NCBI RefSeq assembly: GCF_003347015.1
Contig: NZ_PNFB01000008.1
Location: 62,001-126,000 of the forward strand
Source: Brachybacterium sp. YJGR34
GTDB lineage: Bacteria; Actinomycetota; Actinomycetes; Actinomycetales; Dermabacteraceae
Length of the DNA stretch: 64,000 nucleotides
Direction: 5' to 3'
Shown: positions 11,533-14,383 of the stretch, one piece after another
Numbering within the stretch: the first letter of the stretch is position 1
How the letters are laid out: every line of letters begins with the position of its first letter
The notes under the pieces: model-generated
What the model was told of the DNA's origin: nothing
The model's input: the letters and a program-made list of their open reading frames with translations, nothing else
Databases searched by the model: none
Translations under genes and position numbers: made by a program

Positions 11533-11583
11533 CACCGCCCCGTCCTGTGCCCCGGCGGGCACGGAGCGGTGCTCGGAGACCTC

Positions 11584-12630
11584 ATGACCGGCGCACTCCC
11601 CGCGGGGGCCGCCCTCTCGGGCGCCTACTACGAGCAGGTCGTGGCGCCCCTGCTGGGGCGCCGCGCTCCCGGCGTCGAGCACGCCGCGGCGAGGCTCGGC
11701 TCCGGCTCCGACGTGCTCGGCTACGACGACGCCCAGTCCCGCGACCACGACTGGGGCCTGCGCCTCACCCTCCTCGTCGAGGACGGCGGCGCCGCGGAGG
11801 TCGATCAGCTCCTGGCCGCGGAGCTGCCCGCGCGATGGCGGGATCTGCCCACCCGCTTCGCGACCACCTGGGACCCCGTGGTGCGGCACCGGGTCGAGGT
11901 CGCCTCCGCGGCGGACTTCGCCGCCTCCCGGCTGGGCCTGGACGCCTCCGGGGCGCTGGGGCCGACGGGGCGGCTGAGCCTCGAGGACTGGCGCTCGCTC
12001 ACGGGGCAGGCCCTGCTCGAGGTGACGGCGGGGCCCGTCTTCCACGACGGTCCCGGCGTCCTCACCGCGCTGCGGGAGCGTCTGGCCTGGTACCCCCACG
12101 ACCTCTGGCTCTACGCGATCGCGGCGGACTGGCACCGCGTGGGCCAGGAGCTGCCGGACGTGGGCCGTGCGGGCCTGCGCGGGGACGAGGACGGCTCCGC
12201 GCTGATCGCCGCCCGCCACGTGCGCACCCTGTTCCACCTCGCTCATCTGCTGCACCGGCGCTGGCCGCCGTACGGCAAGTGGCTCGCGCGCTCGGCGGCA
12301 GAGCTGCCCGGCGGGGGAGCGGTGCGCGCCGCAGCCCTGGACGTGCTGGGCTCGCGCGACTGGCGGAGGCGGCAGGCCGCCCTGGGCGACCTTGCCGAGC
12401 TGCTGGCCACGGTCCAGGGAGAGGCGGGCCTGCCCACCCTCCTGCCGGCCACCGAGGCCTTCTTCGACCGTCCCCACCTGGGCCTGCGCGGGCTGCCCGA
12501 GCAGCTCGCCGCGGCGATCGCGGATCCGGCCGTCCGGGACCTCCCTCCCGGCGTCGGCACGGCGGAGCAGATCAGCGACAACGTCACCGTGCTGGTCGAC
12601 CCGACGGCACGCCGCCGGCTGGTGGGCTGA
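11584..12630 (+). CDS. DUF4037 protein (nucleotidyltransferase-like N-terminus)
   Basis: 348 residues from ATG 11584, preceded by CGGAGA; a GTG fifteen bases upstream is possible. Residues about 30-60 hold ARLGSGSDVLGYDDAQSRDH with a following D-W-G. The G-S-G-S-D...D-x-x-S-x-D-H-D pattern recalls a nucleotidyltransferase active site. The middle and C-terminal parts are helical and contain the DUF4037 core (RERLAWYPHDLWLYAIAADW, then RHVRTLFHLAHLLHRRWPPY). No reaction is known. It lies 51 bases after glyS on the same strand and may be co-transcribed. Confidence 0.8.
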   Translation: MTGALPAGAALSGAYYEQVVAPLLGRRAPGVEHAAARLGSGSDVLGYDDAQSRDHDWGLRLTLLVEDGGAAEVDQLLAAELPARWRDLPTRFATTWDPVVRHRVEVASAADFAASRLGLDASGALGPTGRLSLEDWRSLTGQALLEVTAGPVFHDGPGVLTALRERLAWYPHDLWLYAIAADWHRVGQELPDVGRAGLRGDEDGSALIAARHVRTLFHLAHLLHRRWPPYGKWLARSAAELPGGGAVRAAALDVLGSRDWRRRQAALGDLAELLATVQGEAGLPTLLPATEAFFDRPHLGLRGLPEQLAAAIADPAVRDLPPGVGTAEQISDNVTVLVDPTARRRLVG

Positions 12631-12645
12631 GACGCTCCGCCGAGG

Positions 12646-12655
12646 GCTGATCAGC
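12646..12655. promoter_or_regulatory. palindrome upstream of the clpP pair
   Basis: GCTGATCAGC is a perfect 10-bp palindrome 51 bases before the clpP ATG and just after the DUF4037 stop. Its GCT...AGCG halves resemble the repeat upstream of the ClgR/PopR-like gene (14369-14383). It might be a binding site for that regulator; this is a guess from two short sequences. Confidence 0.25.
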
Positions 12656-12705
12656 GCAGGACGGAGAACGGCACCCGGCCCAGCGCGAGCGTCCACGCTG
12701 GAGCC

Positions 12706-13344
12706 ATGACCACCCACACCACCCCACCGACCGCCGACGGGCTCGGCACCCTCACCGCCACCCGCCTGCTCCACCATCGCGTGCTCCTGCTGGACCGCGA
12801 GCTGGACCAGGACAACGGCGCCCAGCTCTCCGCCCAGCTCCTGCTGCTCGCCGCCGAGGATCCCGCCACCGACATCACCCTGCTCATCAACTCCCCGGGC
12901 GGTCTGGTCCCGGCCATGCTCGCCATCGGCGACCTCATCGACCTCGTGCCCTGCGACGTGCGCACCGTCGCCCTCGGCATGGCCTACAGCGCGGGCCAGT
13001 TCCTGCTCACCCACGGCACCCCGGGCAAGCGCCTGATCCTGCCGCACGGGAGGGTGCTCATGCATCAGGGGTCCGCCGGCTTCGGCGGCAGCGCCGCGGA
13101 CATCGAGCTGCAGGCCGAGGACCTGCGTCGTGGCCGCGACCTGCTGATCGCCCTGACCGCCGAGCGGACCGGGCAGAGCATCGAGACCATCGCCCGCGAT
13201 TCCGAGCGGGACCGCGTGTGGGAGGCGCACGGTGCTGTCGAGTACGGCTTCTGCGACGCCGTGGTCGAGTCCCTGGACCAGATCCTCCCCGCGATCCCCA
13301 CCATGTCCCGGCCGGTGGCGCTCGGGCAGGGAGGTGGACGATGA
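12706..13344 (+). CDS. clpP: ClpP-family serine protease, complete triad
   Basis: 212 residues. The ClpP fold is clear (TLLINSPGGLVPAMLAI, DVRTVALGMAYSAGQFLL, ILPHGRVLMHQ). By position the triad is Ser95 (in AYSAG, the usual ASMG site), His120 (LMHQ) and Asp169 (SERDR), so it should be catalytic. The nucleophile motif is AYSAG instead of the common AASMG. It starts 75 bases after DUF4037 and overlaps the next, triad-deficient clpP gene as ATGA. ClpP forms a barrel with ClpX/ClpC ATPases. The paired arrangement suggests a mixed barrel. Compared with the housekeeping clpP1-clpP2 pair found beside clpX in most actinobacteria, this is probably an extra, regulated pair. Confidence 0.92.
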   Translation: MTTHTTPPTADGLGTLTATRLLHHRVLLLDRELDQDNGAQLSAQLLLLAAEDPATDITLLINSPGGLVPAMLAIGDLIDLVPCDVRTVALGMAYSAGQFLLTHGTPGKRLILPHGRVLMHQGSAGFGGSAADIELQAEDLRRGRDLLIALTAERTGQSIETIARDSERDRVWEAHGAVEYGFCDAVVESLDQILPAIPTMSRPVALGQGGGR

Positions 13345-13943
13345 GCAGCTACCCCGTCCCCAGCGTCCTCGAGCGCACCCGCGGCGGCGCGGAGCGCAGC
13401 GCCGATGTCTACTCCCGCCTGCTCAGCGACCGCATCATCTATGTCGGCACGCCGATCGACGACGTTGTGGCGAACACCGTCATCGCCCAGATCCTGCACC
13501 TCGAGAACGAGTCGACCGGCGTCCCCCTCCACCTCTACCTCAACTCCTCCGGCGGCGACGCCCAGGCGGTGCTGGCCATCTACGACACCCTGGCCTACGT
13601 GCGCTCACCGGTCGCGGTGACCTGCGTGGGGCAGGTGGTCGCGGCGCCCGTGGTGCTGCTGGCCGCGGGCACGCCGGGCCTGCGTTCGGTGCTGCCGCAC
13701 ACCCGGGTGGTGCTCCATCCGCTGCAGGCGCAGGGGCGCGGCGCGATCCCGGACCTGATCCTCGCCACCGAGGAGGTGGAGCGGATCCGTCGCGCCCTCG
13801 AGGCGCTCCTGGCCCGGCACAGCGGGCAGTCGCTCGAGCGGGTCCGCCAGGACCTCGAGCGCGAGCAGGTGCTGGACGCCCAGGCGACGATCGACTACGG
13901 GCTGGCCGACGAGATCCTGGTCAGGCGGCCCGCAGCAGGGTGA
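13341..13943 (+). CDS. ClpP-like protein lacking catalytic Ser and Asp
   Basis: 200 residues, starting at ATG 13341 inside the end of the first clpP gene. The fold is ClpP (VPLHLYLNSSGGDAQAVLAI, VLPHTRVVLHPLQ, TIDYGLADEIL), and the oxyanion-hole Gly-Gly is kept. At the nucleophile site the usual GQAASMG reads GQVVAAP, placing Ala101 where Ser should be. His126 is kept (VLHPL), and the acidic member is Glu175 (LEREQ) where active ClpPs have Asp. It is therefore predicted to be a non-proteolytic subunit, comparable in idea to cyanobacterial ClpR, that would pair with the active subunit encoded just upstream. The reading frame is intact, so it is not a pseudogene. Confidence 0.9.
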   Translation: MSSYPVPSVLERTRGGAERSADVYSRLLSDRIIYVGTPIDDVVANTVIAQILHLENESTGVPLHLYLNSSGGDAQAVLAIYDTLAYVRSPVAVTCVGQVVAAPVVLLAAGTPGLRSVLPHTRVVLHPLQAQGRGAIPDLILATEEVERIRRALEALLARHSGQSLERVRQDLEREQVLDAQATIDYGLADEILVRRPAAG

Positions 13944-14328
13944 CCCCGGCGGTCCCGCCGGCGCCGGACGGCGCCCGCCGTCCGCGGTGCGCTCCGGGAC
14001 CGGCGGCGCCGTGCAGCTCGAGGACCGCGGGACGGCCGACGACGGCAGGGCGGGCGGAGGCCGCCCGGTCCTCCGCGGCGCCGTCGGCGATCCGCAGCAG
14101 GAGGTCGGGCACGCGGAGACCCAGAGCTCCGGCGATCGCGGCCAGCAGCTCGGAGGACGGATCCTTGCGCCCGCGCTCGACGTCGCTGAGGTGCTGCATG
14201 CTGATCCCGGCCGCGCCGGCGACCTGGGAGAGCGTGCGGGCCTGGCGTCGGCGCTCGGCGCGCAGCACGGCGCCGAGCAGCTCGCGCAGCAGCGGCTCGA
14301 GCTCGGCGGCCTCCCGGTGTCCGTCCAT
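13921..14328 (-). CDS. ClgR/PopR-like XRE-family regulator
   Basis: 135 residues. The N-terminal ~65 residues form a helix-turn-helix close to actinobacterial ClgR: LLGAVLRAERRRQARTLSQV, then GISMQHLSDVERGRKDPSSE and LLAAIAGALGL. The rest is Ala/Pro/Gly-rich and poorly conserved in character. In Streptomyces, ClgR activates clpP1P2 and its paralogue PopR activates the second clpP operon. Here the gene sits tail-to-tail with a clpP pair, overlapping the second gene by 23 bases, so it likely regulates that pair. It is a candidate substrate of the protease it controls, as known for ClgR/PopR. Confidence 0.85.
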   Translation of the reverse strand: MDGHREAAELEPLLRELLGAVLRAERRRQARTLSQVAGAAGISMQHLSDVERGRKDPSSELLAAIAGALGLRVPDLLLRIADGAAEDRAASARPAVVGRPAVLELHGAAGPGAHRGRRAPSGAGGTAGVTLLRAA

Positions 14329-14368
14329 GGGCCGAGACTACGTGCGCCCGATCCCGATCGCGGCGCAC

Positions 14369-14383
14369 TCCGCTGTGAGCGGA
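14369..14383. promoter_or_regulatory. inverted repeat upstream of the ClgR/PopR-like gene
   Basis: TCCGCT and AGCGGA are exact reverse complements around GTG, 41 bases upstream of the regulator's ATG. ClgR boxes have CGC...GCG halves with a wider spacer, so this may be a variant autoregulatory site. Confidence 0.35.

Follow-up and report, generated by a model that had tools for sequence, protein, structure and literature searches.

A clpP3-clpP4-popR type locus in Brachybacterium with a predicted inactive second ClpP subunit, and apparent repeated loss of its catalytic site among actinobacteria

The window analysed here, a stretch of 64,000 nucleotides from Brachybacterium sp. YJGR34, contains two neighbouring clpP genes, called clpP-A and clpP-B in the following, and a gene for a ClgR/PopR-like HTH regulator (Table 1). 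The ATGA coupling of the clpP genes and the tail-to-tail position of the regulator gene, both pointed out in a preliminary description of this DNA, are indeed seen. The regulator gene is convergent to clpP-B, and the 3' ends of the two overlap by 23 bases. Upstream of clpP-A and on the same strand lies a gene for a DUF4037 protein, which ends 75 bases before the clpP-A start; a candidate operator starts right past its stop codon. PADLOC matched neither the ClpPs nor the DUF4037 protein, and its hits to the regulator were all of a generic HTH kind. Four ClpP matches were found in the genome. The remaining two adjoin each other on contig C2 and cluster in a joint tree with the housekeeping ClpP1 and ClpP2 proteins.

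Table 1. Genes, coding positions and candidate regulatory elements of the clpP-A/clpP-B locus (positions refer to the window).
Feature	Position	Strand	Basis or remark
DUF4037 protein gene	11569-12630	+	PF13228, 98.9 bits; upstream of clpP-A
Candidate double operator before clpP-A	12636-12665	+	layout 6-3-6-6-3-6, GCTGATCAGC in the middle
Symmetric repeat GCTGATCAGC before clpP-A	12646-12655		
clpP-A (ClpP3 type), predicted catalytic subunit, 212 aa	12706-13344	+	PF00574, 175.4 bits; triad columns; A clade
clpP-A codon Ser95	12988-12990	+	triad
clpP-A codon His120	13063-13065	+	triad
clpP-A codon Asp169	13210-13212	+	triad
ATGA start/stop overlap, clpP-A/clpP-B	13341-13344	+	
clpP-B (ClpP4 type), without catalytic Ser and Asp, 200 aa	13341-13943	+	PF00574, 178.4 bits; triad columns; B clade; pocket
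clpP-B codon Ala101	13641-13643	+	triad column
clpP-B codon His126	13716-13718	+	triad column
clpP-B codon Glu175	13863-13865	+	triad column
ClgR/PopR-like HTH regulator, ends LLRAA (putative degron), 135 aa	13921-14328	-	PF13560, 42.4 bits
Candidate operator of ClgR type, upstream of the HTH gene	14369-14383	-	TCCGCTCACAGCGGA on the coding strand

According to the preliminary description ClpP-A carries a complete Ser-His-Asp triad, and ClpP-B keeps only the histidine, with alanine and glutamate at the other two positions. When both are aligned to the housekeeping ClpP1 and ClpP2 of the same genome, all six residues fall in the three triad columns. No alternative serine is available at the nucleophile position of ClpP-B, where the local stretch GQVVAAPVVLL is free of serine, and no substitute catalytic residue is seen in the alignment. 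The refuting alignment considered in the preliminary description, with another Ser and Asp at the triad, does not arise. Both oxyanion glycines of ClpP-B (E. coli positions 67-68) are retained, as had been noted. ClpP-A has the Ser-His-Asp that characterizes active S14 ClpP peptidases and ClpP-B has not. Single-chain models predict a ClpP fold for both proteins, with a mean pLDDT of 90.1 for ClpP-A and 88.6 for ClpP-B. Among solved structures ClpP-B matches best, at 38% identity, a chain from 4u0g, the ClpP1P2 complex of M. tuberculosis.

The second subunit is present at 71% identity or more in 21 of 38 Brachybacterium genomes, its own included. All 21 proteins have the alanine and the glutamate, and in four of them arginine replaces the histidine. 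Some of these matches show an internal stop because the match extends beyond the end of a 196-aa protein. For 190 Brachybacterium pairs from 20 loci (L019 was left out) the median dN/dS is 0.28 for the second and 0.31 for the first subunit, which are rough figures only owing to the simple count method and the GC-rich genome. The proposed active/inactive pair with its ClgR/PopR-like regulator is supported, as a conserved arrangement under purifying selection. A decaying duplicate, i.e. a pseudogene in the making, would fit with the 17 Brachybacterium genomes without an ortholog-level match (the search may have failed in G016 and G030, two of the 17, where not a single ClpP was matched) and with the split open reading frame of the first subunit in loci L019 and L113. 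However, the dN/dS of the second subunit is not above that of the first, and relaxed selection relative to its partner is not seen. Moreover, the docking tyrosine of degenerate second subunits and the operators are conserved and the partners are intact, as described below, so this explanation is hardly credible. The two split frames may be sequencing errors or real breaks.

We collected 21 Brachybacterium loci, 80 named ones and 189 drawn over phylum, class and order. The named loci are biased, as they are the best 80 of 546 when ranked by likeness to a single sequence whose triad is intact. Two rows (L133, L200) were dropped for containing the same genes as L005 and L011. In the 290 loci the first subunit was found in 284 and an HTH gene in 262, of which 261 are convergent. 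Seven rows were dropped as ordinary ClpPs: L142, L143, L144 and L146 are lone proteins, and L244, L271 and L273 are ordinary ClpP1P2 by the joint tree. The 283 second subunits that remain comprise 275 distinct proteins, since eight loci duplicate an already counted one. In the joint tree the 281 first and the 283 second subunits form one clade each, with a support of 99 and including the Streptomyces rows, separate from 28 ClpP1 and 28 ClpP2 rows. Each Brachybacterium subunit clusters with its Streptomyces counterpart, the comparison with ClpP3 and ClpP4 having been suggested in the preliminary description. The two genes adjoin each other in 281 of 283 loci (the exceptions, L053 and L165, are a single cut locus seen twice), and 160 of 281 pairs have the identical four-base overlap.

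Of 393 genomes sampled across the class 117 have the module (120 less three), as do 84 of 297 sampled across the order; under the Streptomyces genus code 72 of 150 genomes match, with E values up to 1e-88. A phylum-wide profile count (384 of 396 genomes) did not separate ClpP4 from ordinary ClpPs and does not enter these prevalence figures. Five sampled loci with an HTH gene (L135, L137, L139, L140, L145) lie outside the class, elsewhere in the phylum; alanine stands for aspartate in four of these and for serine in the fifth. Among the 120 best protein relatives the named ones outside Brachybacterium are from Saccharopolyspora, Mycolicibacterium, Devriesea and Antrihabitans. These relatives and the wider loci rule out an oddity of Brachybacterium. 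By gene content and phylogeny the locus is a clpP3-clpP4-popR type of module and no speciality of the Brachybacterium lineage.

Ser-His-Asp is kept in 96 of the 275 distinct second subunits. The other 179 are broken in 25 combinations, 121 at one position, 53 at two and five at three. Counted by locus, 99 of 283 are intact: none of the 21 from the genus, 20 of the 80 named loci (best 80 of 546) and 79 of the 182 sampled. Only three of 121 rows, i.e. the 120 best protein relatives and the query, show Ser-His-Asp. Among 273 distinct partner proteins 271 have a complete triad (by locus, 279 of 281), and the two exceptions are the split frames mentioned above. All control triads are intact (28/28 ClpP1, 28/28 ClpP2). 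Within the named loci (best 80 of 546) the second subunits of Streptomyces show Ser-Gly-Asp in 42 of 43 cases and Ser-Ala-Asp in one. They are broken in three of three Jiangella loci (Glu for Ser, His or Asn for Asp), in two of four Gordonia loci (Gly for Ser) and in nine of 18 Nocardioides loci in four ways, and are intact in one or two loci each of Cellulosimicrobium, Oerskovia, Sanguibacter, Sphaerisporangium, Phycicoccus and Auraticoccus. Second subunits from 19 and 26 further, unnamed loci of the genus code that groups with these Streptomyces loci, at least two of which duplicate a named protein, are also degenerate; the 26 new loci (30 listed, four already known) all have Ser-Gly-Asp and an intact partner.

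Plain parsimony, which is blind to loss versus regain, requires a minimum of 11 or 13 changes between intact and broken on two trees, the latter without L019 and L113. If regain is forbidden, 21 or 23 losses result. Collapsing weak branches at 70, 80, 90 and 95 reduces the 21 losses to 18, 18, 13 and 6, and the 23 losses to 21, 19, 11 and 9. All trees were made with FastTree on short proteins, and in the 21-loss tree the outgroup is not one clade. Judging by the sequences, the second subunit has lost its catalytic site many separate times and via different residues. As a third of the second subunits are intact, inactivity is not necessary for the module.

We looked further for features by which ClpP particles receive their ATPase. 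Positions are given here in E. coli ClpP numbering. Tyrosine occupies this position in 274 of 275 distinct second subunits and in 178 of the 179 degenerate ones. The 273 distinct first subunits have tyrosine in 115, tryptophan in 75 and leucine in 43 cases, and all 21 Brachybacterium ClpP-A proteins have leucine. At position 82 the second subunits carry Phe (166), Tyr (88) or His (21), the first ones mostly Leu (208). In the controls position 62 is aromatic in 28 of 28 ClpP1 and 28 of 28 ClpP2 proteins. The axial-loop motif PxV...GER is found in 256 of 283 second subunits and in none of 281 first subunits. E. coli Tyr62 is a residue altered in published docking mutants (PMC4416901, PMC9765437). 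The distribution suggests, at the level of sequence, that one ring would cut and the other would dock the ATPase. A coupled change of pocket loss in the first and triad loss in the second subunit is not supported: the nine supported independent pairs mostly showed no difference and are too few for significance. Pocket loss could not be linked event by event with triad loss, so the asymmetry may predate the losses.

The same features bear on two other roles for ClpP-B. It might mainly join ClpP1 or other housekeeping subunits and tune or block their particles as an inactive member. Subunit exchange is reported from Streptomyces, where ClpP-ADEP binds ClpP1 and makes an active core with ClpP2 (PMC12607617), and the docking pocket is kept in the second subunit. 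Against this, the gene nearly always adjoins clpP-A, often with the four-base overlap, and a pure blocker would need no partner with an intact triad, which almost every locus has. We regard this role as unlikely. ClpP-B might also serve outside any proteolytic particle, as an ATPase-binding chaperone platform or decoy, with ClpP-A working alone. The lost triad and kept pocket are compatible with any docking role; however, ClpP-A lacks the axial-loop motif throughout and often the docking tyrosine as well, and would therefore alone be poorly placed for receiving substrate, which leaves such a platform quite improbable.

The regulator scores 73.8 bits against the ClgR model NF041677, under the cut-off of 170. 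A second ClgR-like protein (G000:C2:116022-116261) is a better ClgR match with 111.4 bits, also under the family cut-off, and is probably the housekeeping ClgR. The regulator encoded beside the pair ends with two alanines in 237 of 262 loci, where 5.7 are expected from the alanine content, and in 20 of 21 Brachybacterium loci. In PopR two C-terminal alanines are a likely degradation signal. For ClgR and Lon two terminal alanines are given as the likely signal (PMC9775585). According to PMC9765437 and PMC12607617, ClpP1P2 degrades PopR, and on loss of ClpP1P2 PopR drives clpP3clpP4. The module thus includes an adjacent ClgR paralogue with a putative C-terminal degradation signal, which is the predicted activator.

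The symmetric repeats indicated earlier before both transcription units, TCCGCT-GTG-AGCGGA before the HTH gene and GCTGATCAGC before clpP-A, were found as described. The box in the HTH promoter recurs with at most three mismatches in 19 of 21 Brachybacterium loci, and the best of 420 shuffles has four, with the window's own sequence as consensus. A looser pattern, CGC[CT]N3[AG]GCG, occurs there in 14 of 21 loci versus 2.2 in shuffled sequence. Before clpP-A, GCTGATCAGCG is exact in 10 of 21 loci; the best shuffle has two mismatches, a level not surpassed in seven of the 21. The repeat lies within a larger element, TCCGCC-GAG-GGCTGA-TCAGCG-CAG-GACGGA, whose best matches in the 21 loci have 0-10 mismatches and shuffled sequences never fewer than 11, again with one locus's own sequence as consensus. 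Its layout is that of the PopR site of S. lividans as given in PMC9775585. The exact Streptomyces half-sites CTGCC-N3-GGCAG were found before clpP-A in none of the 21 Brachybacterium loci, which therefore show no tandem operator of that form, and the likeness of the 30-base element to the PopR site is one of layout only. Elsewhere, 33 of 79 named loci (from the best 80 of 546) and 63 of 180 sampled ones have these half-sites in the 200 bases upstream of clpP-A, with 0.1 each in shuffled sequence, which maps PopR-type operators directly. The box in the HTH promoter does not point to a wider regulon: CCGCTNNNAGCGG occurs at 23 places of the genome versus 120 for the backward-read control, and the sole other copy with an identical core, CCGCTCACAGCGG, is situated where a carboxyltransferase-like frame ends. 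The box therefore does not serve to mark a regulon.

The sequences themselves show the triads, the orthology, the features for docking, the C-terminal signal and the conservation of the operators. Together with the published systems they make it probable that the locus encodes a backup Clp protease of the clpP3-clpP4-popR type, with a cutting and a docking subunit, which is induced when ClpP1P2 fails. ClpP-A would supply the cutting sites. ClpP-B, having lost its own site but retained its fold together with axial loop and hydrophobic pocket, would form the ring for docking of the Clp ATPase and entry of substrate, and both would probably assemble to a 14-mer with one ring each. The HTH activator would be destroyed by the housekeeping ClpP1P2 through its Ala-Ala signal; with ClpP1P2 failing or poisoned it would survive, bind the element before clpP-A and turn on the spare protease. 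Assembly, activity, ATPase partner, and activator turnover and binding in Brachybacterium are what we infer by analogy, the mixed barrel, its activity and the regulatory loop being carried over from Streptomyces and mycobacterial work.

That the spare barrel is moreover shaped to resist ClpP poisons, and that the recurrent loss of the ClpP4 site reflects adaptive convergence and not drift, is a rather doubtful extension. Without a nucleophile in the docking subunit and with a decayed pocket on the cutting one, the barrel would offer fewer targets for beta-lactones and acyldepsipeptides than ClpP1P2, and a PopR-type activator would signal poisoning by surviving. In line with it, ClpP3P4 is reported as ADEP-insensitive (PMC12607617), and beta-lactones reportedly kill S. 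coelicolor without clpP3 and clpP4 (PMC9775585).

For 25 years a clpP3-clpP4 protease has been on record in Streptomyces. The Streptomyces module with PopR resembles that of Brachybacterium in gene order, neighbouring ClgR-like activator gene, C-terminal Ala-Ala, orthologous subunits and a degenerate second subunit; the Streptomyces loci were equated with the published clpP3-clpP4-popR by order, regulator and operator, not by locus tag. In contrast, the damage to the second subunit differs (Ser-Gly-Asp versus Ala-His/Arg-Glu), and the Streptomyces operator half-sites are absent from Brachybacterium in their exact form. The actinobacterial ClpP1P2 likewise combines a cutting (ClpP1) with an ATPase-docking subunit (ClpP2), according to PMC9765437, PMC9067928 and PMC4416901; its asymmetry is functional, both triads being intact, whereas here the docking subunit lost its site. 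Cyanobacterial and plastid ClpR is a dead ClpP relative beside active ones (PMC9067928), but belongs to a different phylum, and ClpP-B is part of a two-gene module with its own regulator. As a predicted ClpP fold without a full triad ClpP-B would fall under the description of ClpR, a likeness of working; the trees covered ClpP1, ClpP2 and the two subunits of the module. Listeria ClpP1, with Asn for Asp, is also one of two subunits with an altered triad; it keeps serine and histidine, however, and its site works inside the mixed complex (PMC9765437), while the nucleophile position of ClpP-B is occupied by alanine.

In the literature searched, mostly without subscription papers, no account was found of repeated ClpP4 inactivation via different residues, of a triad-less ClpP as the clpP4 orthologue class-wide, of such a wide Ala-Ala module, or of a ClpP3P4 particle. 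No account of the clpP-A/clpP-B pair was found in the Brachybacterium ClpP literature searched either, and the earlier remark that such pseudo-subunits are little characterised in this lineage holds for the genus. It does not hold more widely, as d'Andrea and colleagues (PMC9067928) describe one ClpP allele each of S. coelicolor and Nocardia asteroides without critical triad residues; a dead ClpP in Streptomyces is thus not new. That brief printed remark now becomes a pattern, in which one orthologue would repeatedly have lost its site, whereas the partner retains an intact one wherever its frame could be read. The preliminary description underestimated the spread of the feature considerably, and many actinobacteria carry a spare ClpP beside the everyday one. 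A clear and cheap prediction follows for each subunit of a ClpP3P4-type protease. The broken second subunits resemble a natural repeat of the laboratory serine-to-alanine test on ClpP2, and the intact third offers controls for the use of a second active ring.
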